Positions 6,184 through 62,384 of a stretch of DNA of 64,000 nt are shown in pieces. The DNA is taken from assembly GCA_024230295.1 (NCBI GenBank), contig JAAERN010000147.1:62001-126000 (forward strand). Direction: 5' to 3'. This DNA is from Planctomycetota bacterium. GTDB taxonomy: Bacteria; Planctomycetota; Phycisphaerae; Phycisphaerales; SM1A02. Below the pieces are notes generated by a model. It saw only the letters and a list, made by a program, of their open reading frames with translations, had not been told where the DNA came from and did not search any database. The position numbers and the translations under genes are program-made. The first letter of the stretch is position 1. Each line of letters opens with the position of its first letter.

Positions 6184-6316
6184 GATACGGTGAACGGCCG
6201 TGATTCCATGAACAGACCGCTAAGAAACCCTGACGGCCCTGTCTCGGCGATCTTCCGCTCTGGTCTCACCATCGATTTTCGACGTATCTCGCGGATATGC
6301 CTTCGAATCGACGGTG

Positions 6317-6372: not shown

Positions 6373-6383
6373 TTCGAGAACGC

Positions 6384-6406
6384 ATCATCCTCCGGCATAG
6401 GATGAT
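6384..6406. promoter_or_regulatory. Perfect 8-bp inverted repeat between eboD and the 6431 gene
   Basis: ATCATCCT, a 7-base spacer, then AGGATGAT. It sits 25 bp before a plus-strand ATG and about 200 bp upstream of eboD. There is no T tract, so an operator or a 5' leader hairpin is more likely than a terminator. Confidence 0.35.
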
Positions 6407-6430
6407 CAGCCTTTGATAGGGAGCAATCGT

Positions 6431-6901: not shown

Positions 6902-8090
6902 GGCCAGCCTCCAGAATCTTCACGCTGCGTCGAAGTACATCTTCTTTGACGCAGTAGGCCATACGCACCTCGTTGAGGCCAAGCCCGTCTGTGCGGTAGA
7001 ACCCGGCGAGTGGAGCGAGGCAAACGGTTTCGCCGTCAAGATCGAAATCGCTCACAAGCCAGCGGCAGAACGCGTCGGCATCGTCAACAGGCAATGGGAT
7101 GGCAAGGTAGAACGCACCTTGGGGTGTCGGCACTTCAAGACCGATTCCGCGAAGCCCGTCGACGAGGATGTCGCGACGATTCTGATACTCGGCGTTGACT
7201 TGCCGGAACCACGACTCCGGAACAGAGAGTGCTGCGTGTGCCGCGTATTGATCAACACTTGCTGGTGAGAGCCGTGTCTGAGCAAAGCGAAGGGCGGCCT
7301 CGCGGAGTTCCGTATTTCTGGTGATGACCCAACCAATTCTCGCGCCGCAAGCGCTGTACCGCTTTGAGACGGAGTCAATGATGATCGCGTGTTCGTCCGC
7401 GGCCGGGATATCGAGCAGCGAAGCTGCCCGTGTTCCGGGTTCAACGTCGTAGACGAAGTCGCGATAGACCTCATCGCAGATGAAGAAGATGTCACGTTCG
7501 ACGCAGATCTTGGCGATGGCCTCAAGGACATCTCTACTCAGCACTGTTCCGGTCGGATTGCCGGGCGTGGGGAGTATGAGTGCGCGGGTTTTTCCTGTGA
7601 TAGCAGCCGCGATGGCGGCGGGATGAACTTGGAATCCATCCGATGCTGAGAGTGTGACGGGCGAAACTTCAACGCCAAGGAGATGGCTGAAGCCCGCATA
7701 GTTTGTGTAGTAGGGCTCGCATACGAGCACTTCATCGCCTGGATCAGTGACCGATGCGATTGAGAAGAGCAGCGCCTCGGAACCGCCAGTGGTGACGACA
7801 ATATCCTCCGCTTCGATATCTCGGTGAATGCCGCCACGATCGGAATACCAGACGGCGAGGTCTTGTCTGAAATCCACGAAGCCATCGCTGGGGGCGTAGG
7901 CCAGAACATCGTCGTGATAGTTGCGATAAGCCTCCGTCATTTCAGACGGCGTTGAAATATCTGGCTGGCCGATGTTCAGGGCATGCACCGTGATGCCGCG
8001 TGCCTCTGCGGCTCGGGCCAATCCGGCCAGAGCGCGAATGGGCGATGCTGGCGCCTCCGAGCCGCGTCTGGAAAGTGTGCATGTGGACAT
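6879..8090 (-). CDS. Class I/II aminotransferase (aspartate aminotransferase-like, PLP)
   Basis: A 403-residue fold-type I PLP enzyme. Typical blocks are NIGQP near the N-terminus, TTGGSEALLF (PLP phosphate site), PTPGNPTGTV, FICDEVYRDF, and the Schiff-base lysine in SVSKRYSACGARIGW. The Arg that binds the substrate carboxylate is probably in NEVRMAYC near the C-terminus. The ATG at 8090 is preceded by AGGAGG at good spacing, so an ATG 11 codons upstream is not used. Probable cytoplasmic amino-acid transaminase. Substrate (Asp, Ala or aromatic) cannot be fixed from sequence. It is a single-gene unit. Confidence 0.88.
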   Translation of the reverse strand: MSTCTLSRRGSEAPASPIRALAGLARAAEARGITVHALNIGQPDISTPSEMTEAYRNYHDDVLAYAPSDGFVDFRQDLAVWYSDRGGIHRDIEAEDIVVTTGGSEALLFSIASVTDPGDEVLVCEPYYTNYAGFSHLLGVEVSPVTLSASDGFQVHPAAIAAAITGKTRALILPTPGNPTGTVLSRDVLEAIAKICVERDIFFICDEVYRDFVYDVEPGTRAASLLDIPAADEHAIIIDSVSKRYSACGARIGWVITRNTELREAALRFAQTRLSPASVDQYAAHAALSVPESWFRQVNAEYQNRRDILVDGLRGIGLEVPTPQGAFYLAIPLPVDDADAFCRWLVSDFDLDGETVCLAPLAGFYRTDGLGLNEVRMAYCVKEDVLRRSVKILEAGLMAWKAR

Positions 8091-23569: not shown

Positions 23570-24072
23570 TGAGCAGATCACGGTCGTGCCGCCGAGGGGG
23601 GCCGTCGCATTTTCAGCAAAATGCCGTATGTTCGAGCCTATACCAGACAAATGGCGGCAATTGGACGAAGATCGCCGCATAAGCATGCGAATTCGACGCA
23701 ATTGAGCCACATCGCCTATCCGCTAGGGCATCGCCGCCTTGTGGGCTCATTTTTGCCTGTGGAGCAATTTGTCAAAGGCGAAACAAGTGCGAAGAAGCGG
23801 GCAATAAGACAAGAAATAGCGACAAATAGACGCAATTAGACAAAGTATCGGTTGGATAGCGGCATCGGGCATTGCTGTTGGTGGGCGTTCAGGCTTTATC
23901 CAGTGGGGTTTGGGGTTCGCGGCGGCCATCGCTGGGCTGCGGCCGCCTGGTCCAGAATGGCTTCTCGGAGATTGGACTTAAACAGACAAAATACCGATAA
24001 ACTGGTCTTGATATCAGGCCTATCTGGACCGATGCTGTTGTGTCCGGTAAGTCACTGGCGAGGAAACGGTTG
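23570..24072. other. 500-bp AT-richer intergenic stretch with short recurring motifs upstream of the heme operon
   Basis: No convincing gene. GCAATT occurs four times (23657, 23698, 23764, 23832), usually preceded by GGCG or GACG. AGACAA occurs four times (23644, 23807, 23838, 23984). A TGATATCA palindrome lies at 24009-24016. The stretch is clearly richer in A and T than its flanks. It probably holds the promoter region of the cytochrome gene, possibly with repeated protein-binding sites, or it is a decayed remnant. Confidence 0.35.
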
Positions 24073-26427: not shown

Positions 26428-28228
26428 ACGCCACGCACTCATGCTTCGCTGGGGAGCACCGACCGCAGTGTTGACGGTTGGGGCGGCTGTCGCAGTGGTG
26501 CTCTTGACGCAACGCGGCGATCCAATGGCCCCCGGCGAAGATGGTTCGATCGACGGGTTGACCTCGGTGCTCTCGAGAGAGACCACCAGCGATATGGTCA
26601 CAATTTCACTGGTTGATGAGACAGGCGGCTCGGGCATCGAGTTCAAACACTTTCCCGATACGCGGCGATCGGTGTTGCCTGAGGACATGGGCTCCGGCGC
26701 GGCGTGGGGCGACTACGACGACGACGGTGACCAGGATCTCTTTCTTGTCAACTTTGCCGCGTCCATTCTGGAGCCTCTTCCCTTAGAGCCCGGCGCGGGC
26801 TCGTCGCGTCTGTATCGAAACGATGGTGCGGGCAACTTTGTCGATGTGACTGAGAAAGCAGGGCTTGCAAAACCGATTCGTGGAAACGGTGCAGCTTGGG
26901 CCGACTTTGACGGAGATGACGATCTGGATCTGTACATCACGGCTTGGGGCGAGAATCGACTGTACCGAAACGATGACGGTGCGTTTGTGGACATTGCATC
27001 TGAGGCAGGTGTGGATGATGGCGGATTCGGAACGGGAATCGCCTGGTTCGACGCGGACAGCGACGGGTGGATTGATCTGTATGTGTGCAACTATGTCGAT
27101 TTCGAGTATCGCGAAGATGATCTGGCCCGCCGAGAGAAACAGTACGGGGCCGAGGTGCCCTTTACGCTCAATCCGTCTTCATACAAATCGCAGCCCAATC
27201 GGCTCTATCGCAACAACGGGGATGGCACGTTTTCGGATATTGCGGAGGCGTCCGGCGTCGATGACAAGACAGGCAGAAGCCTCGGCGCCGCGCCGTTCGA
27301 CTTTGACCTCGATGGAGACATCGACCTTTACGTTGCCAATGATGTATCCGCCAACGGAGTCTTTTTGAATCAGGGCGATGGAACCTTCAAGGATATTGGC
27401 GCGTCTTCGTTGGCGGCTGACTACCGCGGAGCGATGGGCATGGCCGTTGGTGACATGGACCAAGACGACGACTTCGACTTGTTTGTTACGCACTGGATTG
27501 CGCAGGAAAATGCGGCGTTCGAGAACATGCACTCGGAGAACTGGAAGGACAAGGAGGGCAACCGTCGAATGTTCTTCATGGACAGCGCCGAGATGCTCGG
27601 TCTTGGTCAGGTATCGCTGAAGATGGTCGGATGGTCGACGGGGTTTGCCGACTTTGACAACGATGGCCTCGACGACCTGTGGGTTGTCAACGGCCACACG
27701 TTGGAAGACGAAGCCGATGCCACCAAGCTTCGCCCCCAGCGCATGCAACTCTTCCGGCAGATTTCCGATGAAGGTTTCTTCGATCTTGGAGAGGCCGCCA
27801 GTAAGTCGATCGCGGTTCCTCTTGTTGGCCGCGGCGGCGCCTCGGCAGATTTCAACGGTGACGGCCTTGTCGATCTTCTTGCCGTCGAGTGTGGGGGGAG
27901 GCCTCGGCTTCTTCGCAACGCGTCGGCATCGCCGGGCAACCATCTTGTCGTTCAGTTGCGGCAGCCCGGCCCAAATACGCGGGCGTTGGGGGCGATCGTC
28001 CGAGTGACCACGCCCGCGGGAACTCAAATGCGGCAGGTTGGCGGGCAGGCGGCCTACCTCTCCCAGGACATGCTCGACCCCCTGTTTGGCCTTGGCGAAG
28101 CGGATCGAGCTTCCATCGAGGTGGTATGGCCGGATGGGCTGATATCTGAGGAATCCGACATGCCGGCGGGATCGTCGGTCCAGTTTCGACGCACTGAAGA
28201 GGGCAAAATCAGCGTCGATCACCACTGA
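26405..28228 (+). CDS. CRTAC1/ASPIC-UnbV protein with FG-GAP repeats
   Basis: A 607-residue exported or membrane-tethered protein with an N-terminal hydrophobic segment (residues 17-35). A series of FG-GAP/VCBS calcium-binding blades follows: WGDYDDDGDQDLFLVN, WADFDGDDDLDLYITAWG, FDLDGDIDLYVAND and FADFDNDGLDDLWVVNGH. The last 120 residues are the ASPIC/UnbV domain (NHLVVQLRQPG, LGAIVRVTT, SIEVVWPDG). Its start lies inside the end of the cytochrome gene, so the two are made together. CRTAC1 proteins often sit beside multiheme cytochromes in planctomycetes; their job is not established. Confidence 0.87.
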   Translation: MSKRGFNKRHALMLRWGAPTAVLTVGAAVAVVLLTQRGDPMAPGEDGSIDGLTSVLSRETTSDMVTISLVDETGGSGIEFKHFPDTRRSVLPEDMGSGAAWGDYDDDGDQDLFLVNFAASILEPLPLEPGAGSSRLYRNDGAGNFVDVTEKAGLAKPIRGNGAAWADFDGDDDLDLYITAWGENRLYRNDDGAFVDIASEAGVDDGGFGTGIAWFDADSDGWIDLYVCNYVDFEYREDDLARREKQYGAEVPFTLNPSSYKSQPNRLYRNNGDGTFSDIAEASGVDDKTGRSLGAAPFDFDLDGDIDLYVANDVSANGVFLNQGDGTFKDIGASSLAADYRGAMGMAVGDMDQDDDFDLFVTHWIAQENAAFENMHSENWKDKEGNRRMFFMDSAEMLGLGQVSLKMVGWSTGFADFDNDGLDDLWVVNGHTLEDEADATKLRPQRMQLFRQISDEGFFDLGEAASKSIAVPLVGRGGASADFNGDGLVDLLAVECGGRPRLLRNASASPGNHLVVQLRQPGPNTRALGAIVRVTTPAGTQMRQVGGQAAYLSQDMLDPLFGLGEADRASIEVVWPDGLISEESDMPAGSSVQFRRTEEGKISVDHH

Positions 28229-47996: not shown

Positions 47997-50348
47997 TCAG
48001 ATACTCCAGTTAGCGAGGACTTCAAGAAGATCGGCCATGTCAACCTCGCCGCTCTGGTCGAGGTCTGCGATATCGCAGTCTTGGTCCACGCCGTCGCACA
48101 CTTCGCCCCAGAGACCGATCAGGAACATCAGGTCGTCGACATTCACGACGCCGTCGAGGTCAAAGTCGCCGGGGAGCACGATGATGCACATGGGCAGTTC
48201 GATGCACTTGGTCTCTGTGCACACAGCGCCGTTGCTGAAAGTGACCTCAAAGTCGATGCACACGGTCGAACCCTGGGAGGCGCCGGTCAGCACCGAATCG
48301 AAGGGCCATGAGTGCAGTGGAGGCAGCGACATCGAAACGTAGTCAGGGCTGAGCGATGTGCCGGATGGCGGCGTCATCGAGACACTGGTGATCGCGCTGC
48401 CTGCATCCATGTTGCTTACGCCGAGGTGCAGATCAAACTGGAACGGTGGGAAGTAGCTGAGGCAGTCGATGTCCAAGACCTGAATCAAGGGGCAGTCAGC
48501 GACTGGATCGGGATCTTCGGACCGACGGGTGACAACCAGATCGCCGAGTAGCGTCTTGTCCTGAATGGACAGATTGTCGTTGTAGTCGATCAGCCAGCTG
48601 TCCACGATGGATCCGCCAGTGGAGGGAAGTCCCTGGAAGCCGTAGATGTTGTCGCCACTGCCGAGGTGAAGCGCGTCGCCAGAGGCCCAGACGCGTGTGT
48701 CCTTGGCATCGACGCCGCCAGCGGCGGACTCGGCGATGCTGCCGACGTGGAAGACGTGGGGTGTCAGTACCCAACCTGTGGAGGAGCATTCGTACTCAAG
48801 GACACGGGCATTGTGGGCGCTCATGTTGGTGATCCCGGCCTGTGATCGCTCGCCGAGCACCATCGTGCCCTCGGGGCTGAAGTCGATGTCGGCAACCGGG
48901 GAGGAGTAGGCGTAGTTGCCATCGATGTAGAAGTCGGCCAATGTGATTTCAAGTTGGCCTGTACTCGCAACTGGTGCGCCGCTGCCGTCGAGTTCCACGG
49001 ACCACACTTCGTTCTGGACGGATGTGGACGAATTGCTGAGGTCCTTGTTCCAGAGGCCGTAGTAGAGCCGCTCGCCATTGACTTCGAGTCCGAAGGGGCG
49101 ATCGCCAAGAGCGACTGGGCCGGGGCTGCCGGTCCACGGGGTGCCGTGATCGAACGTGTCGAGAATGGCGCCGGTTGCGTAGTCGAGCCGGTAGATGAGA
49201 CCGTCTTCGAAGTTGCTGACGAAGAACTGCCCGTGCTCGCAGTCATAGGTGATTGAGCCAAGGCTGCTGTTTGCGGTGGGAAGCACGGCGAAGGTTGATA
49301 TGGCTGCAGTGTCGGTGTCGATGCGATACACGGCGCCCCAACCGGACGGACCCATGACGTCAACATTCCATGTTTGTGAGGCAGTGACAAAGATGTTGCC
49401 TTTTTCATCGATTGCGAGCCCAAGGATGCTGCCGAGATTGGCGCTTGTCCAACTGGGGTGGGCATAGCGGCCGATCGGGAACGCTGTGTTGAAGGGCTGG
49501 GAGCCGATGCCGGTGAGGTCGAAGACTGTCAGCATGCGGTCACCGGGGATGCCAGGCGAAACAGTCTGCACGGCGACGCGGCCGGGGCCGAAGGCCATGA
49601 ATTCCTGGTCATCGTAATTGGGACGTCCAGCGCAGTCGCTGCCAGCAACGCTCTCGCATCCGATTGGATCGCAGTTGACGCCAGGGTCTGTGCAGTGCGA
49701 ACCGGCGCCGTACCAGACGCCCGACTGAGCGTGGCAATCGGCTATGGTCGTTTCAATGCAGTACCAGTAAGCGGATCCGGGTTCCTCTTCGACGCAGCAG
49801 GCGCCGTCCTCGGGAATCGGATCACACTCAACGAATGGATCGGAGCAGACGCTCCCGGGTCCGTACCAGTAGCCGCCGAGGTCGACGCAGTACTCTTCGA
49901 TCATCTCGGCGCAGACCAGGCCGTAGGTCGGATCTTCATAGCAGCAGGCGCCGTGGTCAGGCTCGGGCGGACATTCGATTGAAGGGTCGCTACAGGAGAG
50001 GTCGGGGTACCAGGTGCCACCCATGTCGTCGCACTTGTAGTCCTCTATGACTGCGCAGTGCCAACCGGCCGCGTCCTCAAAGCAGCACGCCCCCTCTGTT
50101 GGAAGTGGGTCGCACTCGACGAATGGGTCGGCGCAGTTGGTGCCGACGCCGTAGTGGAATCCGCCCAGATCAGAGCACTGATCGGGGCTGACCTCGATAC
50201 ACACCAGTCCGCCCATATCCGGGTCGTCGTAGCAGCATGCCCCTGAGGGGTCATCTGCATCTGCGAGCGAGGCTGATGTAAGGGCTGACAGGGTAGAAAC
50301 GAGGATTGCGGATGCAATGTGACGCTGACGGGGGGCTAGGGGGCTCAT
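47997..50348 (-). CDS. Exported protein with four Cys-rich repeats, beta-propeller-like part and dockerin-like tail
   Basis: A 783-residue protein. After the signal peptide (AILVSTLSALTSASLADADD) come four repeats of about 48 residues (36-228), each starting GACC and ending with a ECDP- or NCDP-type turn. Each has six to eight cysteines, probably in disulfides. Residues 250-560 look like a beta-propeller (LGLAIDEKGNIFVTAS, GSITYDCEHGQFFVSNFEDG). The tail is a two-repeat dockerin-like module (FDLDGVVNVDDLMFLIGLWG, then DLDQSGEVDMADLLEVLANW). GGAGAT supports ATG 50348 over the ATG four codons earlier. Extracellular binding is likely; no enzyme motif. Confidence 0.75.
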   Translation of the reverse strand: MSPLAPRQRHIASAILVSTLSALTSASLADADDPSGACCYDDPDMGGLVCIEVSPDQCSDLGGFHYGVGTNCADPFVECDPLPTEGACCFEDAAGWHCAVIEDYKCDDMGGTWYPDLSCSDPSIECPPEPDHGACCYEDPTYGLVCAEMIEEYCVDLGGYWYGPGSVCSDPFVECDPIPEDGACCVEEEPGSAYWYCIETTIADCHAQSGVWYGAGSHCTDPGVNCDPIGCESVAGSDCAGRPNYDDQEFMAFGPGRVAVQTVSPGIPGDRMLTVFDLTGIGSQPFNTAFPIGRYAHPSWTSANLGSILGLAIDEKGNIFVTASQTWNVDVMGPSGWGAVYRIDTDTAAISTFAVLPTANSSLGSITYDCEHGQFFVSNFEDGLIYRLDYATGAILDTFDHGTPWTGSPGPVALGDRPFGLEVNGERLYYGLWNKDLSNSSTSVQNEVWSVELDGSGAPVASTGQLEITLADFYIDGNYAYSSPVADIDFSPEGTMVLGERSQAGITNMSAHNARVLEYECSSTGWVLTPHVFHVGSIAESAAGGVDAKDTRVWASGDALHLGSGDNIYGFQGLPSTGGSIVDSWLIDYNDNLSIQDKTLLGDLVVTRRSEDPDPVADCPLIQVLDIDCLSYFPPFQFDLHLGVSNMDAGSAITSVSMTPPSGTSLSPDYVSMSLPPLHSWPFDSVLTGASQGSTVCIDFEVTFSNGAVCTETKCIELPMCIIVLPGDFDLDGVVNVDDLMFLIGLWGEVCDGVDQDCDIADLDQSGEVDMADLLEVLANWSI
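49665..50243 (-). repeat. Four tandem 47-50-codon repeats in the Cys-rich protein
   Basis: Units of 50, 47, 49 and 47 codons encode the pattern GACC..ED..........C.DLGG.WYG.GS.C.DP.VECDP. The Cys positions are kept while other residues drift, so the units are old rather than recent copies. Confidence 0.8.
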
Positions 50349-50781
50349 GACGATCTCCATTTTGGTGATTTAGCGGAAGCAAAGGCTTCCTCACCATGTC
50401 TCCGTATCTGGCCTCTGAATCTGTCAGCACGGAGGGGATCGCCGGCAAATAAACAGCAAATCGTTGTGCTGCAGCCGTTTGGGCGGCGTGGTGTGGGGGC
50501 CCAATCAAATGCTGGGCACCCACCAACATGGCTTGGGAAGGCAGAAAGTGAGGTTTTTGGGGCCTGGTACTGCTTCGGTACCCTTCTGCCCATTTGTTAT
50601 CTCAGCGGCAGGAAATCGGCGTCATTGCTATCTCAGCGTCAACGAGAACGGGGTTCCGCCATTCGGTGGAACCTTGAGCAATCGGCGGTTTATGGCGAGT
50701 AATACTGGACATCGAGGTCGTTTGGGCCGATCCTTGCCAGATGGACCGGTGCGCGGTGCTTTGCTTGGAGGCGGCGATTTT
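50349..50781. other. Intergenic region between divergent exported genes, with a 10-bp repeat at 31-bp spacing
   Basis: TATCTCAGCG occurs at 50598-50607 and again at 50629-50638, three helical turns apart, about 150 bp before the multiheme gene. A short hairpin (GGAAGC/GCTTCC) lies at about 50375-50390. No known riboswitch was recognised. An open frame spans most of it, but it is an upstream extension of the cytochrome frame without export signal. Confidence 0.35.
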
Positions 50782-53700
50782 ATGGCTATCAGAATGGTGA
50801 CTCAGGGGTGGGGACCTCGATGCGCTGCTGTGGCCGGAATGTGCACCGTCGTAGGCGTCGCCGCGGCCATGCCGGGCATGTCCCGCAGTGGCACTGTGAA
50901 CCCTCATGTGTCCGCCCCATCGCACGGCTTTGCCAGTGTCGATGTCCCGTTGACGTTCAATCCTGGAATCGGTCCGGTGAAGGTTGAGACTCCTGAAGGC
51001 ATCGAGTGGATCGAGCAGTGCGTGCGGCGTGAGCCAGGAACGCGCGGCGAGGTGTATCCGGGATGCCTTGAATGCCACGGCGAACTCGAGTCAGCGACAG
51101 TAAACATGGCGGGTCTCGATCTGGATTGCACGTTCTGCCATGGTGGCGATCCCGACGCCACGACCAAGGAACTCGCGCACATTCATCCGAACGGCAATGT
51201 TGTCTATGGCGCTGCCATCCCGCCAATTGATGACGACCTCGACTACCAGAGATTCGTCAATCCGTCGAACCTGCGCGCCGCACAACAAGTCTGCGGCATC
51301 TGCCATTCCAACGCTGCCCGCGATTTGCTCAAGAGTATGATGGCGACGACGGCGGGGCACTACTCTGGCGGCTTCTACCAAAACGACGTTGTCGACACGA
51401 AGGAAGCCATTTATGGGACCTTCGCGATTGAAGACAACGATGGCTGGGTGCCTGAAAACGCCGTGGAATCTCTTCTCGACCTCTTGATCTATGACGGCGT
51501 GGGCGATCCGCTCGTGGCCGCCACCCATTATCAGGCTGTGCCATCGCAGGCGTGTGCACGTTGCCATCTTTGGTCGCGAGGCAAGGGATACCGAGGAGCC
51601 GAGGGGCAGGACGGCCTGTACCGCGCCGATGGCTGTGCGGCATGTCACATGCTGTACGACAACGATGGCTTGTCGCAAAGTGCAGATACTTCGATCGATC
51701 ACACGCAGCCCGGCCATCCACGAATCCACACGATTACGCGGCGAGTTCCGACGGAGCAGTGCCTGCACTGCCATCACCGCGGCGCTCGAATCGGCCTCTC
51801 ATACACAGGGCGAGCTCAGATGCCACCGCGGCTTCCATCCGGCCCCGGTGTTCCCGGGACGACCGACGAGAAGTTCAATTCCAATTATCACTACTCGGTG
51901 GCGGACACGAATCCACCCGACATTCACCACGAACTTGGTATGCACTGCATCGATTGTCACGTCAAGACCGAGATCATGGGCGACGGCAATATCTACAGCC
52001 ACATGGACCGTGCCACAAAAATCGAGTGCCGGACTTGTCACGGTACGCACGACACAGAGCCGACCATGACCGATCATGACGGCGCTCCGATGCCGAATAC
52101 GTGGCAGGATGGCGATGGCGGATGGATGCTCACCAGCAAGGTTGACGACGTCAATCACTCGATTCCACTGGCTTCGGACGTAGTCGCCTCCAATCCAAAG
52201 GCCGCGCAGGCCATGGGGCATCATCACCTCAAGGACACGGGGGGGCTCGAGTGCTACGCGTGTCATACGTCATGGGTGCCGAACTGTTACGGCTGCCACT
52301 TCGAGCGTGACGAGACGCAGATGGGCCTCAACTATTGGACCGGCGAGTACGAGGTCGGCAAGGTCACGACGAACAACAAGATTTTCGAAGCTCTCCGGCA
52401 GTTCTCAATCGGACCCAACAGCGATGGTCGCATCGCGCCGTACATCGTCTCGTGCATGCCGATCGCGGATATCACTGCTGCCGATGGAACCAAGCTGCTT
52501 GACTACGTCATGCCTGTGTCAGGCAGCGGGATCTCGGGCTTGGCCCACAATCCTGTTCAGCCACATACGGTCCGCGGTGCAGGCGAAGTGCGAACCTGCG
52601 CAGAGTGCCATCGCTCGCCACCGACGCTGGGGTTCGGTACCGGAAGCGTGGACATCGCGAGAACGTTCGTTCATGGTGCAGGTTTCTCGGGCGTCTCATC
52701 GCATGATCGATGGGCCGATCCATTGACCCCCGTGCCGTCCGACCCGGTCGTTGATGGCATCCCGACCTATGGCATGGTGTCCATTCCGAACGTGATCGAG
52801 GGAACGGCGGACTTTATGTACGTCGCGCTCGGTTCCAGCGGCGTGAAACTACTTGATCGGTGCCCCGATGCGCCCGTCAATCCCGTTTGGGAACTCACTG
52901 ACTGCTTTGCGCTCGATGTGGAACGCAAGGCCCGCTATCTCTATGTTGTTGAAGCTGGCGTCGGTGTTCGGGTCTATGACACCAGGCACCCAGAAACGCC
53001 TACGTTCATCACGACAATCGCCCTTCCAGGTGCGAAGCGGGTGACACAATGGGGGATCCATCTCTTTGTGTCGATGGCCGAGCAAGGCCTGGCGATCGTG
53101 GACTTGTCCGATGACTTGAATCCGATCGTCACTGCCGAAGTCTCGGGCATCAACGCGATCGACGTTCAGTTGATGGGCCATTATCAGAGTGGATCGGACT
53201 TTGCCGTTCGAGCGTATGTCGCCGACCCGGACTTCGGGGTGCGCGTCATCGACCTCCTTCCTGACTTCGATTTCCCGACGCTGCTGAGTGGACTTCCAAT
53301 TGCGGATGGTGCCTACGGTCTCGATATGTATTCGCGTTGGCTGCCAGCTTCCGGAACAGAGCCATCCCACGAGCATGACTATCTCTATGTAGCAGCCGGT
53401 GAGGATGGTTTGCACATCTTCGACATCACGGAGCCCGATGGCATTGTCGCAGCAGCGCATGTTGACACGCTGGCAGGCTTTGCCGCCGACGTGGACGTCA
53501 ACAGTCAACTCTCGCCGCCCGGCGTGGACGACTACGCCGTGATCGCCAACGCAGATCTCGGCCTGCAGATCGTTGATGTGAATGATCCCAACAACCCGGT
53601 TGTCATCGGCGACGTCCCATCGTCAGCGCCGTGCGAGCGTGTGTTCGTCGAGGTGCAGCAACTGGATCGCTTCATCGATGAGCAGGGCGTGCAACTCAAG

Positions 53701-53955
53701 GACACCTCCCATCCAAATACCGGCGTTTTCGACCGGGCGGACATCGTTCGAATCCTGAAAACGGATATTGGTTCGATCGAACCGTGCGATGGCGATCTCG
53801 ACCAGTCGGGTGACGTTGGGGTCGATGACCTTTTCGCCATTCTGGGTGCTTGGGGACCGTGCGGCGGCTCGTGCCCCGAGGACATCAACGGCGACGGCTT
53901 CGTTGGCACGGATGATCTCTTGGCGGTGCTCTCGGGATGGGGTTCCTGCTGGTAG
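50782..53955 (+). CDS. Secreted 11-heme cytochrome fused to LVIVD propeller and dockerin-like tail
   Basis: A 1057-residue exported protein with an N-terminal signal (AAVAGMCTVVGVAAAMPG). Eleven CXXCH heme sites lie at 95, 116, 171, 258, 285, 327, 389, 416, 491, 502 and 606. Six LVIVD-type repeats follow (about 670-970), such as LYVVEAGVGVRVYDTRHP, LFVSMAEQGLAIVDLSDDLN and LYVAAGEDGLHIFDITEPDG. The tail is a two-repeat dockerin-like module ending WGSCW. GGAGG ten bases before ATG fixes the start; the frame continues upstream without a signal. Likely extracellular or outer-surface electron transfer. Partner and acceptor unknown. Confidence 0.85.
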   Translation: MAIRMVTQGWGPRCAAVAGMCTVVGVAAAMPGMSRSGTVNPHVSAPSHGFASVDVPLTFNPGIGPVKVETPEGIEWIEQCVRREPGTRGEVYPGCLECHGELESATVNMAGLDLDCTFCHGGDPDATTKELAHIHPNGNVVYGAAIPPIDDDLDYQRFVNPSNLRAAQQVCGICHSNAARDLLKSMMATTAGHYSGGFYQNDVVDTKEAIYGTFAIEDNDGWVPENAVESLLDLLIYDGVGDPLVAATHYQAVPSQACARCHLWSRGKGYRGAEGQDGLYRADGCAACHMLYDNDGLSQSADTSIDHTQPGHPRIHTITRRVPTEQCLHCHHRGARIGLSYTGRAQMPPRLPSGPGVPGTTDEKFNSNYHYSVADTNPPDIHHELGMHCIDCHVKTEIMGDGNIYSHMDRATKIECRTCHGTHDTEPTMTDHDGAPMPNTWQDGDGGWMLTSKVDDVNHSIPLASDVVASNPKAAQAMGHHHLKDTGGLECYACHTSWVPNCYGCHFERDETQMGLNYWTGEYEVGKVTTNNKIFEALRQFSIGPNSDGRIAPYIVSCMPIADITAADGTKLLDYVMPVSGSGISGLAHNPVQPHTVRGAGEVRTCAECHRSPPTLGFGTGSVDIARTFVHGAGFSGVSSHDRWADPLTPVPSDPVVDGIPTYGMVSIPNVIEGTADFMYVALGSSGVKLLDRCPDAPVNPVWELTDCFALDVERKARYLYVVEAGVGVRVYDTRHPETPTFITTIALPGAKRVTQWGIHLFVSMAEQGLAIVDLSDDLNPIVTAEVSGINAIDVQLMGHYQSGSDFAVRAYVADPDFGVRVIDLLPDFDFPTLLSGLPIADGAYGLDMYSRWLPASGTEPSHEHDYLYVAAGEDGLHIFDITEPDGIVAAAHVDTLAGFAADVDVNSQLSPPGVDDYAVIANADLGLQIVDVNDPNNPVVIGDVPSSAPCERVFVEVQQLDRFIDEQGVQLKDTSHPNTGVFDRADIVRILKTDIGSIEPCDGDLDQSGDVGVDDLFAILGAWGPCGGSCPEDINGDGFVGTDDLLAVLSGWGSCW

Positions 53956-54024
53956 GCACGAAGGCCCATTTCCATCCATGGGAGGCACAAGCGGGGGCTC
54001 AAACGGGGGCGATTCTATGCTATA

Positions 54025-54034
54025 CTGATATCAG
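54025..54034. promoter_or_regulatory. CTGATATCAG palindrome at the etf promoter
   Basis: A 10-bp perfect palindrome overlaps a TATACT box (54021-54026) 43 bp before the etfB start. The 8-bp core TGATATCA also occurs before the 24073 cytochrome and before the bamA-like gene. Confidence 0.35.
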
Positions 54035-54076
54035 TACCAGTTTATCTAGATTTATCCCCCTGTCCGGATCTTCCCT

Positions 54077-54862
54077 ATGAGACTCCTCGTTGTTGCAATG
54101 CAGGTTCCCGATTCTCGCGCTGCCGTACGAGTGCTGGAGGACGGATCGGGCATTGATCCGGTTGGTATGAAGTTCGTTTGCAGCCCATTCGACGAGTTCG
54201 CTGTGGAGCAAGCAGTTCAGATTCGCGAGCGGGACTGGGATGTCGAGGAGATTGTTGTGCTGACCGCGGGCGATGCTTCCGCCTCGGGAGTACTTCGAAC
54301 CGCACTGGCGATGGGGGCCGACCGTGGCGTGCATCTGTTGGGCGACTCGCTCCCACTGCATGACGAGATTGCGATGGCCAGATTGCTAGCGGCGACGGTC
54401 AAGCACGCGGGTCTGGAGCCCGACCTCGTGCTGTGTGGAAAGAAGGTCATCGACAACGACTCGGGTGAACTTGGGCCAGCGCTCGCGGAGTATCTGGGTC
54501 TCCCTCACATCGGTGGCATTTGCAGTCTGGAACTCAATGATGAGGCGAGCCGCGCTCGAGTCCACCGCCGAATGGACGGCGGTGACCTGGTGATGGAAGT
54601 TGACCTACCGCTCTTGCTGACATGCGACAAGGGGCTCGTTGATCCTCGCTATCCGGCGCTCCCGATGATCATGAAGGCCAAGAAGAAGCCTGTTGACGTG
54701 GTTGATGCCGCCGACGTGGCGAGCAGTGCTGGTTCCTGCACGCGGTTCGAGCGATTGCAGCCCCCGAACTCGTCCGGTGTCTGTCAGATGCTTGAGGGTG
54801 AGCCCGCCGAAATGGCCCAGGAACTCGTCCGCCTGCTCCACGAAGAAGCCAAGGTGATCTGA
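54077..54862 (+). CDS. etfB: Electron transfer flavoprotein beta subunit
   Basis: A 261-residue EtfB. VAMQVPDS near the N-terminus, then VVLTAGDASASGVLRTALAMGADRGVHL and DLVLCGKKVIDNDSGELGPALAEYLG are family blocks; the last holds the AMP/FAD-contact DxDSGxxG-type motif. It forms a heterodimer with EtfA and receives electrons from acyl-CoA dehydrogenases in the cytoplasm. Three bases separate it from etfA, and EMO follows, so electrons go to the membrane. It is not obviously the bifurcating type; that needs structure-level comparison. Confidence 0.93.
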   Translation: MRLLVVAMQVPDSRAAVRVLEDGSGIDPVGMKFVCSPFDEFAVEQAVQIRERDWDVEEIVVLTAGDASASGVLRTALAMGADRGVHLLGDSLPLHDEIAMARLLAATVKHAGLEPDLVLCGKKVIDNDSGELGPALAEYLGLPHIGGICSLELNDEASRARVHRRMDGGDLVMEVDLPLLLTCDKGLVDPRYPALPMIMKAKKKPVDVVDAADVASSAGSCTRFERLQPPNSSGVCQMLEGEPAEMAQELVRLLHEEAKVI

Positions 54863-54865
54863 GTT

Positions 54866-55852
54866 ATGTCGAAGAACACGCTGGTATTCATAGAACACCG
54901 AGACGGAGCCATCACGCCTGCCTCCTTGCGCATGGTTACGGCAGCAAAGTCCGTCACCGATGCCGAAGTGCACGCGGTCGTCATAGGCCACGGTGTTACG
55001 CCGATCGCTGAGCAAGCTGCCGTCATTGGTGTCGACAACGTCCACGTCTTGGATGACGAATCCCTTCAGCAGTACAGCGTTCTCCCATATACGCGAGCGA
55101 TGGACGCCGCGATCGAAGCCTCAGCCGCAGCGGTGGTCGTATTGGCCGCGAGCGGCCTGACGCGTGATTTTGCGCCGCGGCTCGCTGCTCGGCACAACGG
55201 ACTGATGGCGACCGACTGCACCTCTGTCGAGAGGATTGGAGAGTCAATTCACGTCAGGCGAACGATGTATGCGGCCAAGTGCGAGGGCGAATTGGAACTG
55301 CCTCCGGGCCAACTTCGAATCCTGTCGATCCGTGGCAATGCCTTTCCGCTTCCCACCTGCACGGGCAAGGCACCGATATCTTCGGTGGACGCCATCTTGA
55401 GTGAGGGTGACAAGCGAGTACAAGTAATCGAGTTTATTGCCGGTGACGAAGGCGAGCAGAACCTTGCCGACGCCGATGTCATCGTGTCAGGTGGCCGGTC
55501 GCTCGAATCCGAGAGCAACTTCTCCATCCTCTATGACCTGGCCCATCGTCTCGGTGGAGCGGTTGCGGCAACGAGAGCAGCCGTCGATGCTGGTTACCAG
55601 CCGCAGTCCCATCAAGTGGGCCTGACTGGAAACGTTGTGGCGCCGCAACTCTATGTTGCGTGTGGAATTGATGGAGCGATCCAACATCTCGCAGGTATGC
55701 GAGGAAGCAAGGTCGTTGTTGCAATCAACACCAAGGCCGAAGCTCCGATTTTTAATGTCGCAACTTACGGGTGTGTAGCCGATCTCTTTGAGATGGTCCC
55801 ACTGATCAACGAGGCATGCCAATCCCTTGACGGGAAGCCGGTCCTGCAGTGA
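54866..55852 (+). CDS. etfA: Electron transfer flavoprotein alpha subunit
   Basis: A 328-residue EtfA carrying the FAD. The C-terminal FAD domain shows VSGGRSLESESNFSILYDLA, SHQVGLTGNVV and YVACGIDGAIQHLAGM, with VVAINTKAEAPIF. N-terminal domain as usual. The stop overlaps the EMO GTG as GTGA. Together with EtfB it would collect electrons from acyl-CoA oxidation; no acyl-CoA dehydrogenase is in the window. Confidence 0.93.
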   Translation: MSKNTLVFIEHRDGAITPASLRMVTAAKSVTDAEVHAVVIGHGVTPIAEQAAVIGVDNVHVLDDESLQQYSVLPYTRAMDAAIEASAAAVVVLAASGLTRDFAPRLAARHNGLMATDCTSVERIGESIHVRRTMYAAKCEGELELPPGQLRILSIRGNAFPLPTCTGKAPISSVDAILSEGDKRVQVIEFIAGDEGEQNLADADVIVSGGRSLESESNFSILYDLAHRLGGAVAATRAAVDAGYQPQSHQVGLTGNVVAPQLYVACGIDGAIQHLAGMRGSKVVVAINTKAEAPIFNVATYGCVADLFEMVPLINEACQSLDGKPVLQ

Positions 55853-57855
55853 GTCCGATTTTTACAGCGATTCTCATGCTCGCAGCAGTGGGGGTATTTG
55901 CTGTTTCTGCGTGGCGCCGCTGGCGGCTGCTGGTGATCGGGGCGGGAGGCAAGAAGCCATTCGTATGCGATCGTCTCGGTGAGCGTGTACGCGGCACGCT
56001 TCAGTTGGCATTCGGTCAGAAGAAGCTGACTCGGTACCGACTCGCGGGTCTCGCACACAAGGCGATTTTCTTTGGCTTCCTTGTTCTTCTTCTTCGATCG
56101 CTCATTCTGTTTACCCGCGGATTCCTCGACGATCCAGGATTCGGTTACTGGCTGTTCGACGACGGCACGGTGTTTGGAAACATCTACGGTTTGATCAAGG
56201 ACATCTACGTCGTCCTGGTACTGATTGGCGTGTGTGTGTTCCTATATCTGCGTGTCATTGTCAAACCCAAACGCATGACGCTCGGTGTGGAAGGCATCGT
56301 CATCCTGCTGATCATTGGCGTGATGATGGTGGCCGATGTGCTATACGACGGTGCCGGAATTGTCCTGTATCAATCCAATGGTCCTATGTGGGGTGAACCG
56401 CTGGGCGAGCTGCTCTCAGGCGCCATTTGCGGGCTTCCGGAGCCACTCGTCGTGTCCTTGTGGCACGCGGGATTCTGGATTCACGTCGTGCTGGTGTTGC
56501 TGTTTTTGAATCTGCTTCCATATTCGAAGCACTTTCACATCATCACGGCCGTGCCGAATGTGTTCTTCCGGAATCTGAACCCTAGGGGTCGGCTCGCGCC
56601 TATCGAAGACATCGAAGGCCGGCTTGAGCGGGAAGAGACGCTTGGTATTCGCAAGATCAGCGAGATACCACCAAAGGGGCTTCTCGAACTCTACTCATGC
56701 ACCGAGTGCGGCCGATGCACTGACCAGTGCCCCGCAACCCGCACCGGCAAGATGCTCTCGCCCAAGCAACTCATGATCGATCTTCGCAGCCATCTCTACG
56801 ACAATGCGAGCGCTTTGGTGCATGGAAGCGACGAGGTTGATTTGGTTCCGACGGTGATTGATCCGGAAGTCATCTGGGCGTGCACGACGTGCGGAGCGTG
56901 CGAGCAGGAATGCCCGGTGATGATTCCGCCGGCTGCTCGCATCATTGACATGCGTCGGCATCTGGTGCAGGAATGCGGCGAGTTTCCGGAGCCGCTGCAA
57001 GAGGCGTGTCAGGGCATGGAGATGGTGGGCAGCCCGTACGGTGTCGGTCCCGAGGAACGCATGTCCTGGGCAGACGGCCTCGACGTGCCGATTCGCGCAG
57101 ACGTCGGCGAGGTGGATGTGTTGTTCTGGGTCGGGTGCGCACCCGCGACGGATGAGCGGTCCAAGCGTGTGGCCCGTTCGATGGTTGAACTTCTCAACCA
57201 TGCAGGTATCAAGTGGGCGGTGCTTGGTCACGAGGAAAGCTGCACGGGCGATGTTGCTCGAAGAATAGGCAACGAGTACCTCTTCCAAATGATGGCCGAA
57301 GCCAACATCGAGTTGCTCAACGGGTACGGCACCACACGCATTTTGACGATCTGTCCGCACTGCTTCAACACGCTTCAGAACGAGTACCCCGACTTTGGCG
57401 GGCACTACGAGGTCGTTCACCACACCGAGTTCCTCGCCGATCTCGTATCGCGGGGTGTTTTGAAGCCCGAGACACCGATTGATCGCACGGTTGTGTACCA
57501 CGACTCCTGTTATCTCGGCCGCATCAATGAAATCTACGATCCGCCGCGGACGCTGCTCTCGGCAATTCCGGGCGTCAACCTCGTCGAAGCGGAGCAGTCC
57601 CGGGACCGCGGCATGTGCTGCGGCGCAGGCGGGGCGCAGATGTTCAAGGAAGACGAGCCTGGCACCGAACGCATCAGCGAAGCAAGGTTCCAACAGCTCA
57701 CCACCACTGGCGCCGACACCATCTGCACAGCGTGCCCCTTCTGCATGCGCATGATGACCGACGCGAGCGCCGCCGATTCCAGTTCCGACGTCGATCAAGT
57801 CGACCCCGCCGAAATGCTTCTTGAATCCATCGCTCCGCGGCGAAGCCGCGCCTAG
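55849..57855 (+). CDS. EMO-type ETF:(mena)quinone oxidoreductase, membrane Fe-S protein
   Basis: A 668-residue protein. The N-terminal 240 residues are a NarI-like membrane domain with about six helices and several His (GLAHKAIFF, LWHAGFWIHVVLV) that could bind heme b. Then come two 4Fe-4S motifs, CTECGRCTDQCP at 284 and CTTCGACEQECP at 345, and CCG/HdrD-type domains (CPHCFNTLQNEY, HDSCYLGRINEIYDPP, GMCCGAGGAQMF, CTACPFC). This is the layout of EMO, which passes electrons from EtfAB to quinone in anaerobes that degrade aromatics or fatty acids. The GTG overlaps the etfA stop. Confidence 0.85.
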   Translation: MSPIFTAILMLAAVGVFAVSAWRRWRLLVIGAGGKKPFVCDRLGERVRGTLQLAFGQKKLTRYRLAGLAHKAIFFGFLVLLLRSLILFTRGFLDDPGFGYWLFDDGTVFGNIYGLIKDIYVVLVLIGVCVFLYLRVIVKPKRMTLGVEGIVILLIIGVMMVADVLYDGAGIVLYQSNGPMWGEPLGELLSGAICGLPEPLVVSLWHAGFWIHVVLVLLFLNLLPYSKHFHIITAVPNVFFRNLNPRGRLAPIEDIEGRLEREETLGIRKISEIPPKGLLELYSCTECGRCTDQCPATRTGKMLSPKQLMIDLRSHLYDNASALVHGSDEVDLVPTVIDPEVIWACTTCGACEQECPVMIPPAARIIDMRRHLVQECGEFPEPLQEACQGMEMVGSPYGVGPEERMSWADGLDVPIRADVGEVDVLFWVGCAPATDERSKRVARSMVELLNHAGIKWAVLGHEESCTGDVARRIGNEYLFQMMAEANIELLNGYGTTRILTICPHCFNTLQNEYPDFGGHYEVVHHTEFLADLVSRGVLKPETPIDRTVVYHDSCYLGRINEIYDPPRTLLSAIPGVNLVEAEQSRDRGMCCGAGGAQMFKEDEPGTERISEARFQQLTTTGADTICTACPFCMRMMTDASAADSSSDVDQVDPAEMLLESIAPRRSRA

Positions 57856-60740
57856 TTCACTGTGAGCGCCGGCGTCTCGGCTTTGGCGGCTTCCTTGGCT
57901 CGCAACGCTCGGCGGATCTTCTCCGGAGTGATCGGGAGGTCCGTAATCCACACGCCAGTTGCGTTGGCAATGGCGTGGGCGACGGCCCCGAGGACCGGGA
58001 GGGTTGAGCCCTCGCCGATTTCCTTTGCGCCAAACGGGCCGCGGGGCTCGTATGAGTCGACGATGCCGCTGAAGATGTCCGGAGCGTCCTTGATGGTCAT
58101 CATCAGGTAGCCATGCAGGTTCGGATTGAGCAGTTTTCCTTGCTCGTCGAACATCACGTCTTCCATGATGGTCTCGCTCGCGCCCATGATGACGGCGCCC
58201 TCGACCTGGCCATGGACCGTCTTCGGGTTGATTGCGCGGCCGCAGTCGTGGTAATCGGTGAACTTATCGATCTTGACCTTGCCGGTTTCAAGATCAACAC
58301 TCACTTCACAAACCGCGCTGCCGAAGGAGTAGGCCGGGCTCGTGCCGACCGTGGCGCCCTTGTAGTCGCCGCCGAGACCGTCCGGCGGGCGGTAACAACC
58401 GGTGCCGACGAGCGGGCCGTTTGCGTTGAAGTACTGGCGGGCCACTTCTTCCCAGGCGACGCAGCGATCTGGGTGGTCGCGGACGAACATCTTGGCGTTT
58501 CGAGCTTCGACTTCGTCTTCGCTGCAGTCGAGCAGCGATGCGGCGAATGGCCGCATGGAATCGACGACCGCCTGGCCGGCACGCGATACCGCGTGGCCGC
58601 CCATGAGCGTGATGCGGGATGAATACGCGCCGAGATCAATCGGAGAGATGTCGCTGTCGCCGCTTCGCATGCGAATGCGGGACGCGGGAATGCCCAGCGA
58701 CTCAGCGCACATCTGCACGAGCACCGTGTCGCTGCCTTGCCCGATCTCGGCGGCGCCAATCATCAGGACTGCCGCAGTGCCGTCTTCGGTGATCTTCACA
58801 ACAGCGTTGGCGTGCGGGAAGATCGACTTTTTCTGGAAGGGCTCACGGCCCTTCTCGTGGGAGAGTTGTACTTGACCGCGGTAGATGCAGTAACCGGCGC
58901 CCGAGACGAATCCGCCGCAGCCGATACCGATGCCCTTGCCGGGGGGAAGCTTGCCGTACTTCTCGGTCCAGTTCGAGCGCTCTTTGACTTCCCGCAGTGT
59001 GGCCCGGTACTCGCAACTGCCGATATCAAGGTCGTTGACGGTGATCGTCTCGGGATCCATCGCGTTCCGTTCGCGAATCTCAACCGGGTCGATGCCGAGT
59101 TCGTCGGCCACCATGCCAAGCAGACACTCGAATGCAAAACGTGGCTGCGGTACGCCGTGCCCACGCATCGCGCCACAGGCGGGCTTGTTGGTCATCACGC
59201 GGTAGCCGTCGTATTGATACGCGGGCAGGTGGTAGAGCGTCGGGATCATGCTGCCCGCGTAGTACGCGGTTGCGACTCCGAAACTCGAGTAGGCACCGCC
59301 GTCGAGATGGATCTCGCTCTTGAAGGCTTTGATCTTGCCGTCGCGGGTGACGCCGAGTTTGAATCGCATGTGCTGCTTGTGGCGGCCCCGCCCGTACTGG
59401 AACATCTCTTCGCGGGTGTAGACCATCTTGACCGGGCGGCCGATCTTCTGCGAGAGCAGGGCTGAGTTGATTTCAAGTGGTGAGGTCGCGGCCTTGCCGC
59501 CGAAGCCACCGCCGACGGTGGGGCGGATGACACGAATTCGGCCAAGTGGAATATTCAGCACGTGCGCCATCATGTACTGCACGTAGTGAGGAACCTGCGT
59601 TGAGGTGTACAGCACGAGCGTGCCGTCCGGGTCCCATGTCGAAATCGACGCGTGTGGCTCCATCGGACACTGGTAAATGTGATTGCCGGTGAACACTTCC
59701 TCGCGGATCAGGTCCGATTCGGCAAAGCCGGTTTCGATGTCTCCGAAGACTTGCTCGACATGCGTATTGATATTGCGTTCAAAGCGGTCATTGACCAGGG
59801 GGGCACCTTCGGCAATGGCCGACATGGGATCAAGCACCGCGGGCAGTTCTTCGTACTCGACTTCGATCAGGGAAACTGCTTGCTCGGCTGTGCGTTCGTC
59901 GATGGCTGCGACCGCAGCGACAGGGTCGCCCACGTGCCGAACCTTCTCCTTGGCAAGCACGTCTTCGTCGTACCGGGCTGGCGAGACGCCGTGCTTGGTG
60001 TCGGTGACGTCCTTGCCCGTCAGCACGGCGAGTACACCCGGAAGTGCTTCGGCTTTGGATGTGTCGATGCGCTTGACGAGGCCGTGGGCAATGGGCGAAC
60101 CAAGCAACTTTCCGTAGGCCATATTGGGCAGGAAGAGATCGGCGGTGTACTGCGCGCGGCCGGTGACCTTATCAACGGCATCCACTCTGGGAATCGAGAC
60201 ACCGACGGTGTCGTTTTCGGGTGCCTTCTCTGGCACGTTGCCGTCCTGGTGGTCCTGTTTGGCGCAGGTGCCGTCGGCGTTGTAGTTGCCGCACCGTTTG
60301 ACCGAACGCATGATGCCGGAGTAGCCGGTGCATCGGCACATGTTGCCCGAGAGTGCTTCCTTGATGTCGTCATCGCTCGGGTTGGCATCCTGTTCGATCA
60401 GCGCAGTCGCCGCGAGGGTCATGCCGGGTGTGCAGAAGCCGCACTGAATGCCGCCCTCTTCAACAAAGGACTGCTGGAGCGGCGTGAGCGTTCCGTTGCG
60501 GGCCAGGCCTTCGATGGTCGTGATCTCGCGTGAACCGACGGTTCCGGCGAGCGTCAGGCATGCATTGACCGGCACGCCGTCAAGAAGCACGGTGCAAGCG
60601 CCGCAATCGCCGACGTCGCATCCGCGTTTGGTGCCCGTCAGTTGGATCTTGTCGCGAAGGACATCGAGCAGTGTGTCGTGCGGTTCGATTGCAGCCGAGT
60701 GCTTCTGGCAATTGATCGTGAATGTACGAGCGATGGTCAT
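57852..60740 (-). CDS. Molybdenum hydroxylase: 2Fe-2S domain fused to Moco-binding subunit (xanthine dehydrogenase family)
   Basis: A 962-residue fusion. Residues 1-150 hold two 2Fe-2S sites: Cys41, 46, 49, 61 (CDVGDCGACT) and Cys100, 103, 135, 137 (CGFCTPG, CRCTG). Residues 175-950 form the Moco subunit: VGDPVAAVAA, IRPTVGGGFGGKAA, GAMRGHGVPQPRFAFE, GAAEIGQGSDTV and the catalytic-Glu motif GAKEIGEGS. In many relatives these are two genes. Some blocks (IGQGSDTV, YSSRITLMGG) resemble 4-hydroxybenzoyl-CoA reductase, but the partner lacks the extra cluster. Substrate unproven. It starts with an ATGA overlap on the FAD gene. Confidence 0.85.
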   Translation of the reverse strand: MTIARTFTINCQKHSAAIEPHDTLLDVLRDKIQLTGTKRGCDVGDCGACTVLLDGVPVNACLTLAGTVGSREITTIEGLARNGTLTPLQQSFVEEGGIQCGFCTPGMTLAATALIEQDANPSDDDIKEALSGNMCRCTGYSGIMRSVKRCGNYNADGTCAKQDHQDGNVPEKAPENDTVGVSIPRVDAVDKVTGRAQYTADLFLPNMAYGKLLGSPIAHGLVKRIDTSKAEALPGVLAVLTGKDVTDTKHGVSPARYDEDVLAKEKVRHVGDPVAAVAAIDERTAEQAVSLIEVEYEELPAVLDPMSAIAEGAPLVNDRFERNINTHVEQVFGDIETGFAESDLIREEVFTGNHIYQCPMEPHASISTWDPDGTLVLYTSTQVPHYVQYMMAHVLNIPLGRIRVIRPTVGGGFGGKAATSPLEINSALLSQKIGRPVKMVYTREEMFQYGRGRHKQHMRFKLGVTRDGKIKAFKSEIHLDGGAYSSFGVATAYYAGSMIPTLYHLPAYQYDGYRVMTNKPACGAMRGHGVPQPRFAFECLLGMVADELGIDPVEIRERNAMDPETITVNDLDIGSCEYRATLREVKERSNWTEKYGKLPPGKGIGIGCGGFVSGAGYCIYRGQVQLSHEKGREPFQKKSIFPHANAVVKITEDGTAAVLMIGAAEIGQGSDTVLVQMCAESLGIPASRIRMRSGDSDISPIDLGAYSSRITLMGGHAVSRAGQAVVDSMRPFAASLLDCSEDEVEARNAKMFVRDHPDRCVAWEEVARQYFNANGPLVGTGCYRPPDGLGGDYKGATVGTSPAYSFGSAVCEVSVDLETGKVKIDKFTDYHDCGRAINPKTVHGQVEGAVIMGASETIMEDVMFDEQGKLLNPNLHGYLMMTIKDAPDIFSGIVDSYEPRGPFGAKEIGEGSTLPVLGAVAHAIANATGVWITDLPITPEKIRRALRAKEAAKAETPALTVN

Positions 60741-61615
60741 GACGTGGCATCCTCGACTCGTTCAGTTGCAAGACGAAGCGCACGTGCCGTGAGTACGCCT
60801 GTCAGTTCTCTGCGAAACTCTGCCGATGCGCGAATGTCGCTGATTGGTTCAGCGGCCTTCATGGTCGCCTCGGCGGCCTCGGCCCACAGATCCTCACTCG
60901 GCGATTCTCCGGCCAGCAGTTTGGCTGCATCGCGGACAAGAAGGGGCGTTGGGGCGACCGCACCGATGGCGACGGCGGCGTTGTCAATCTGTCCCGAATC
61001 GTTCAGTTGAACGAAGGCCGCTGCCGCTGCGACTGCGATGGCATTGCCCTCGCGAAGCGCAAAGCGGACATAGGCGGCACCAGAGCGTGGCCCGGACTTC
61101 GGCACGTTGATGCTCAAGAGCACTTCGTTGTGTTCGCGGACCGTTGATCGTGGACCGGTAAAGAAGTCTGCAACAGGGATCGTTCGCACGCCCGAAGGAG
61201 ACCAGAGGTCTACGCTCGCGCCAAGGGCCATAAGAATGGGCGGTAAGTCGGCGCACGGCACGGCGCTTGCCAGGTTTCCACCTGCAGTTGCCATGTTTCG
61301 GATGGCGGGCGCTGCCATGACACAGGTTGCATCTTGAATGGCGGCCCACGGTCCATGCAGATCGGCCTCGTTGAGTTCGGCGATCGTGACCAGTGATCCG
61401 ATCGTCAGGCCGGATGCTCCTTGGGAGATGCCACGGGCCTGATCGATCCCAGCGATCGAGATCAGATGATCCGCAGCGGATCGTGATGTCTTGAGATCCA
61501 CAAGCAGATCGGTTCCCCCCGCGAGGAACTCGGCGTGGGGTCCGAAGCGATCCATGAGATCGGCTGCGTCCTCAAGCGTGTTTGCTTCGTGAAGTTGAAC
61601 ATTCGGGAGATGCAC
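60737..61615 (-). CDS. FAD-binding subunit of the molybdenum hydroxylase
   Basis: A 292-residue CoxM/XdhB-like subunit. FAD contacts lie in EFLAGGTDLLVDLK and TAGGNLASAVPCADLPPIL. It moves electrons from the iron-sulfur domain to an acceptor, or the reverse. True 4-hydroxybenzoyl-CoA reductase has an inserted 4Fe-4S loop in this subunit; it is absent here. A GTG start with GGAGG eight bases upstream is used. It lies 21 bp after the TetR gene. Confidence 0.88.
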   Translation of the reverse strand: MHLPNVQLHEANTLEDAADLMDRFGPHAEFLAGGTDLLVDLKTSRSAADHLISIAGIDQARGISQGASGLTIGSLVTIAELNEADLHGPWAAIQDATCVMAAPAIRNMATAGGNLASAVPCADLPPILMALGASVDLWSPSGVRTIPVADFFTGPRSTVREHNEVLLSINVPKSGPRSGAAYVRFALREGNAIAVAAAAAFVQLNDSGQIDNAAVAIGAVAPTPLLVRDAAKLLAGESPSEDLWAEAAEATMKAAEPISDIRASAEFRRELTGVLTARALRLATERVEDATS

Positions 61616-61636
61616 GGGCGAATCCTCCGTGGGTGA

Positions 61637-62302
61637 TCAATGGGCGTGGCTGGCGGCCGGTGCACAGATACCGGCCAAGAACTGATTCGTGATTTGGGTT
61701 GCAATGGCCTTCGGAGACGTCGGCCCAGTCGGATTCCACCAGCGATAGAGCCAGTTGAGAGTTCCAAAGAGTGACATCGTGGCGACATGGATGTCCAGCG
61801 GATACTCCGGCGGATTCTCTTTGATGATCATCGCGATGATCTCGCGAGTGAGGGTGTAGTAGGCGAGGCGAATCTCGCGGGCTTGCTCGTACGTTTCACC
61901 CTCAAGCGAATCAAGTTCGTGCGAGCATACTTTGAGTTCCGCCATGTGCTCGGCGAAGTACGTGATGTGGGCGCGGATCATGGTGCAGAGCCGATCTCGG
62001 GGCTCTTCGACACCGACCAGTCGTTCCTGCAAACTCGCGAGAAGCGAACTGAATACGCGGAACTGCATGACAAAGAGCAGCTGCTCCTTGCGGTCGAAGT
62101 AGTGGTACAGGCCCGCCAGACTCATGTCGGCTGCCTTGGCGATCGCCCGCATTGAGGCCTTCTCGTACCCGTGCTGGGCGAAAACGAGCGTGGCCGAGCG
62201 GAGGATGTGGTCCCTCCGCGTCTCGTAAGTGTCGCTGGAGGCGTCAGTTGGAGCCTCGGGCAGCGGGACGTCGAACATTTGATCGGCTCTTTGTGAGTCC
62301 AT
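61637..62302 (-). CDS. TetR family transcriptional regulator
   Basis: A 221-residue repressor. The helix-turn-helix is RDHILRSATLVFAQHGYEKA, then MRAIAKAADMSLAGLYHYF, a clean TetR DNA-binding domain. The ligand domain contains LLASLQERLVGVEEPRDRL and SLFGTLNWLYRWWNP, like acyl-CoA- or aromatic-responsive TetR proteins. GGAG lies seven bases before the ATG. It heads the molybdenum hydroxylase operon and is divergent from the bamA-like gene, so it probably controls both from the shared intergenic region. Confidence 0.9.
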   Translation of the reverse strand: MDSQRADQMFDVPLPEAPTDASSDTYETRRDHILRSATLVFAQHGYEKASMRAIAKAADMSLAGLYHYFDRKEQLLFVMQFRVFSSLLASLQERLVGVEEPRDRLCTMIRAHITYFAEHMAELKVCSHELDSLEGETYEQAREIRLAYYTLTREIIAMIIKENPPEYPLDIHVATMSLFGTLNWLYRWWNPTGPTSPKAIATQITNQFLAGICAPAASHAH

Positions 62303-62384
62303 GGGGGTCTCCAGAGGGTCCAGATCGCGGCAGAGCGGCGGCATCCGACATCATCCACCGTGGACCCCCCATCCGTCAAGGCCT

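Follow-up and report, generated by a model that had tools for sequence, protein, structure and literature searches.

The question raised by this locus is whether a single chain combining a multiheme cytochrome, a β-propeller and a dockerin-like tail is a genuine protein and, if so, what it may do for the cell. The chain is encoded in the window, i.e. the whole stretch of 64,000 nucleotides analysed here, by an ORF that is free of stops and is preceded by GGAGG at 50767-50771 (Table 1). The same module order, each time in one frame, recurs on contigs of three other Phycisphaerae metagenome-assembled genomes (MAGs; L009, L010 and L011), whose proteins are 77-80% identical to the window protein, and the one-ORF state is kept in Phycisphaerae relatives, for example L009-L018. 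Since three other MAG assemblies repeat the ORF, an assembly join or frameshift can be ruled out, and the preliminary description was right to place all modules in one chain. When the protein is compared with these three relatives, replacement changes lie far below silent changes in every module, with silent sites near saturation. Conservation is strongest in the heme module (pN 0.05-0.10), while the propeller shows a pN of about 0.17-0.20; against L009 and L010 the heme module evolves about three times more slowly (0.05-0.06 vs 0.19-0.20). The ORF is thus real and under selection. An AlphaFold model of the protein with 58 relatives as input reached a mean pLDDT of 88 and a pTM of 0.84.

Table 1. 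Features of the cytochrome ORF (window positions).
Feature	Position	Strand	Description
Whole ORF	50782..53955	+	ATG at 50782; 1057 aa, 11-heme cytochrome predicted to be exported, carrying an inserted propeller and a C-terminal tag
Predicted Sec signal peptide	50782..50871	+	Residues 1-30, Arg-containing start, hydrophobic CAAVAGMCTVVGVAAA; judged from sequence
ExtM-like module	51061..52653	+	Residues 94-624, 11 CXXCH motifs
Seven-bladed LVIVD β-propeller	52654..53661	+	Residues about 625-960, inserted into cytochrome chain
Closing cytochrome segment	53662..53769	+	Residues 961-996, contains His977; from alignment with relatives
C-terminal dockerin-like tag	53770..53952	+	Residues 997-1057, two Ca-loop patterns, WGxC end

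The predicted signal peptide includes a helix at residues 14-28 of the model, and no lipobox was seen by eye in the window protein. As had been counted before, eleven CXXCH motifs follow (residues 95, 116, 171, 258, 285, 327, 389, 416, 491, 502 and 606), all of them within residues 95-610; same-composition shuffles contain on average 0.04 such motifs and at most 2 in 20,000. The module aligns with the profile of ExtM from Geobacter sulfurreducens (NF040943, E 6.2e-54), and its own model (residues 54-640) has a pLDDT of 85.8 and a pTM of 0.86. Foldseek found no match to it in the PDB below 0.001 and no candidate at Z 2, in a type of search that may miss models without hemes. Eleven histidines outside the motifs (133, 193, 249, 312, 316, 382, 388, 459, 482, 595 and 977) are conserved at 95-100%. 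We infer from this conservation that they are the heme ligands and that all eleven hemes are bis-His coordinated, which would favour electron passing rather than substrate binding. The secreted conductive protein of the preliminary description is best restated as a multiheme protein that is probably exported and whose most likely task is electron transfer. A narrow heme pattern searched across the window genome returned only the cytochrome gene and low-complexity matches, a pattern that misses the pentaheme gene discussed below, and the heme-attachment protein ResB was not found in this genome, a point against a functional electron relay.

The propeller assignment holds at the level of both sequence and fold. 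LVIVD (PF08309) scores above its cut-off (30.1 vs 20.2 bits) and is found in three stretches by a search confined to residues 651-1057, and residues ~625-960 of the AlphaFold model match seven-bladed propellers, an archaeal surface-layer propeller among them, with Z 28-30 (best 29.6, rmsd 2.8, 299 aligned). That the cytochrome is "fused to" this domain is correct in so far as both share one chain, but an end-to-end fusion is ruled out once unfused relatives, encoded in MAGs of Deltaproteobacteria type, of Nitrospinota and of archaea, are aligned with it. In these relatives, heme 11 runs directly into a closing segment of the type LDRxxDExGxxLKxxSHPxxRxxxxxEIxRIL, whereas about 315-380 propeller residues stand ahead of it in the fused proteins. 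Judged from this alignment, the propeller is therefore an insertion between heme 11 and the closing segment, whose His977 is kept in 96% of the fused proteins and in the majority of the unfused relatives. A propeller placed before a predicted heme ligand is an unusual multiheme construction. Several unfused relatives carry an extra CXXCH after the closing segment that is absent from the fused proteins, in which the tail, by the same alignment, occupies the place of the others' final heme.

This tail comprises the last 61 residues, ends in WGSCW and contains two calcium-loop patterns. The NCBI GC-type dockerin model NF041540 scores 18.6 bits, below its 29-bit cut-off, and no match to the Pfam dockerin PF00404 was reported for the protein; going by these scores, "dockerin-like" is a fair label and "dockerin" is not. 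Of the complexes to which the protein was suggested to be fixed, a cellulosome-like one is unlikely because the cohesin PF00963 is absent from the window genome (control positive). Moreover, about 85 further tag-like places were found in this genome of 2.7 Mb, and the tag occurs on many proteins of other design. The divergent neighbour at 47997-50360 encodes a protein of 787 residues that has Cys-rich repeats and a C-terminal tag of this kind. Among the relatives, tails vary by branch: dockerin-like pairs are nearly confined to Phycisphaerae-type rows, 22 rows have EF-hand tails that are about 270-330 residues long, and most other rows have little or no tail.

A phylogenetic tree with seven unfused rows as outgroup places the 58 fused proteins together on one side of a branch with an SH-aLRT support of 99. 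In an even draw of 294 Planctomycetota genomes, a relative is present in 43, and 24 of these match through cytochrome and propeller, to residue 990 or beyond. Within this draw, the protein is absent from all listed members of the family, order and class to which the window belongs, yet near relatives are present among MAG contigs, and the spread is consequently patchy. As read from these sequences, the architecture is that of a family: within a known family of cytochromes, it forms a planctomycete branch that is widespread but had not been described. No viral copies of the protein were confirmed. Two more distant settings deserve mention. A contig filed under a Desulfurococcales archaeon MAG (L076, 3273-5630) encodes an ExtM-like protein with 12 hemes and a hydrophobic, membrane-like segment at its end; provided that the binning is correct, this would be an archaeal form. 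On Sphingobium megaplasmids (L114, 11836-15825), a 1329-residue multiheme relative adjoins heme genes and lies between ShlB/FhaC two-partner secretion genes, a gene setting that hints at a different export route for such cytochromes.

With regard to function, we consider it reasonably probable that the protein is an exported electron-relay cytochrome with a docking propeller and a sorting or holding tag. After export via the Sec signal, the cytochrome would receive electrons from the quinone pool by way of carriers in the membrane or the periplasm, the eleven bis-His hemes would hand them on, and they would exit to an acceptor or partner, either periplasmic or outside. The propeller may serve as docking platform for a partner or surface, while the tag may sort or hold the protein at the cell envelope. 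A slow heme module joined to a fast propeller is what would be expected of a wire plus a faster-evolving contact domain.

The strongest functional clue, provided by the gene content of a single locus, stems from a gammaproteobacterial MAG (L026). Its 11-heme and propeller-containing relative has an LSAGC lipobox and is a probable lipoprotein; it is followed on the same strand by a DmsE/MtrA decaheme (TIGR03508, 288 bits, cut-off 192), an MtrB/PioB barrel (TIGR03509, 453 bits, cut-off 240), a NapC/NirT tetraheme and a diheme c. By gene content, this run corresponds to a metal-reducing conduit (MtrCAB/CymA-type) with the relative in the place of MtrC. As L026 falls on the Phycisphaerae side of the tree, this operon may represent a borrowed use. 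MtrB/PioB is absent from the window genome as well as from five related planctomycete MAGs, and of the 43 planctomycete carriers of the protein, only 2 also have this barrel, there on other contigs. Because L026 is single and placed within the Phycisphaerae side, and MtrB/PioB is mostly missing, an electron-relay role appears likely and a surface role about even.

A periplasmic variant is possible, if tentative: the protein could link quinol-oxidising membrane proteins with periplasmic reductases, its tag stabilising or positioning it, in analogy to ExtM, which is present in several Geobacter fractions. The window genome, which has no porin-cytochrome partner, would suit this arrangement. A candidate quinol-oxidising partner that could provide electron entry to either form of the relay is also encoded in the window, namely a membrane pentaheme protein (24040-26427) with a hydrophobic N-terminal part, one CX4CH and four CXXCH, directly followed by the gene for an FG-GAP/ASPIC-UnbV protein (the pair spanning 24040-28228). 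This pentaheme family is enriched in carriers, as 13 of the 28 genomes with a strong match have the cytochrome vs 30 of 266 others (Fisher p 1.8e-5, uncorrected for kinship), and a distantly related gene lies near the cytochrome in L015. The sharing of the tag with proteins of so many other designs and the probable lipoprotein beside the MtrAB pair in L026 speak against a purely periplasmic role.

Conversely, the exported relay might form the surface end of a planctomycete system for extracellular electron transfer that is still undescribed and works without an MtrB/PioB barrel. The inserted propeller would then dock a partner, and tags that differ between lineages (dockerin-like, EF-hand or none) would keep the protein attached to the cell; we regard this as rather speculative. 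If the protein is held at the surface, it would serve, in many uncultured planctomycetes, to mark electron exchange with solids or neighbours. To our knowledge, such systems have hardly been described in Planctomycetota outside the anammox bacteria. A conserved planctomycete partner was ruled out, as no heme partner is kept. In Planctomycetia-type loci, sigma-factor-like, DUF1549-like and Tat-exported DUF1501-like proteins are encoded upstream of the fused cytochrome (the latter two in many such loci, for instance in L049 at 1331-3595 and in L079 at 5516-7884), and the DUF1501-like neighbour has no match in the window genome.

An enzymatic role, in which hemes and propeller would together reduce or oxidise an oxyanion or nitrogen compound by analogy to the Ext proteins or hydrazine synthase, seems improbable, even though the gene cluster that includes ExtM has been linked to the reduction of selenite and tellurite (PMC5877670). 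The family profile does match eight-heme nitrite reductases and the hydrazine synthase beta propeller in the PDB, but these matches are short and weak (E 0.001-0.01). One conserved histidine is available per heme, and all motifs are plain CXXCH, none being of the CXXCK type typical of NrfA-like enzymes.

Directly downstream of the cytochrome, 121 bases away on the same strand, lie etfB, etfA and a gene for a CCG iron-sulfur membrane protein (54077-57855). The intervening gap contains a TATACT element, kept in L010, and a perfect 14-base palindrome, TACTGATATCAGTA, at 54023-54036 that is unique in the window; hence, transcription of the etf genes probably starts from a separate promoter. A function within an electron-transferring-flavoprotein pathway, suggested by this proximity and by etfB and etfA following the cytochrome in L010 as well, is very unlikely, since the arrangement is absent in L011 and other relatives with enough flank, which rules out a conserved operon, and the gap suggests separate transcription. 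Adjoining the etf genes at 57852-62344 are molybdenum hydroxylase genes resembling 4-hydroxybenzoyl-CoA reductase, with iron-sulfur and molybdenum parts in one chain, accompanied by a probable TetR-type regulator.

How, then, does the proposed relay cytochrome compare with known systems? The earlier remark that no described protein of this design was known stands for the exact protein within the open-licence papers searched, in which LVIVD joined to a multiheme cytochrome was not found (weak evidence of absence); the multiheme-propeller pairing as such, however, is known, and the heme part has a named relative in the ExtM family. In Desulfovibrio ferrophilus IS5, propeller genes neighbour those for multiheme cytochromes (PMC8322314), and for hydrazine synthase, subunit homologues that bear heme have been described (PMC12758564). 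In these electron-transfer proteins, too, a propeller is paired or fused with hemes, but it is encoded by a separate gene or forms part of a catalytic subunit. LVIVD and choice-of-anchor B proteins (PF08309, TIGR04312) share the LVIVD repeats and exchangeable C-terminal ends, whereas the window protein reaches only 21.7 bits against the TIGR04312 cut-off of 100 and its propeller interrupts a cytochrome.

The outer-surface decahemes MtrC and OmcA are exported multiheme proteins, as is predicted for the window protein, and the L026 relative takes the place that MtrC has in Shewanella beside MtrA- and MtrB-type genes. In contrast, the MtrC/MtrF domain scores 27.9 bits in the window protein, below the cut-off of 30, and MtrB and a visible lipobox are both missing here. 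As for ExtM (GSU2935), the unfused ExtM-like relatives agree with the window protein in the order of hemes and in having the closing segment with its His977. Yet, the window protein stays far below the equivalog cut-off (183.3 vs 800 bits), and its 11 CXXCH motifs compare with 12 hemes predicted for GSU2935 (PMC5877670), the last heme of the 12-heme relatives being replaced by the tail and the propeller inserted. The surroundings also differ: instead of a cluster of the extHIJKLMNOPQS type, the locus contains the tailed protein, etfBA and the CCG protein. By sequence, the heme part is therefore a distant relative of Geobacter ExtM and, by the curated cut-off, not ExtM itself.
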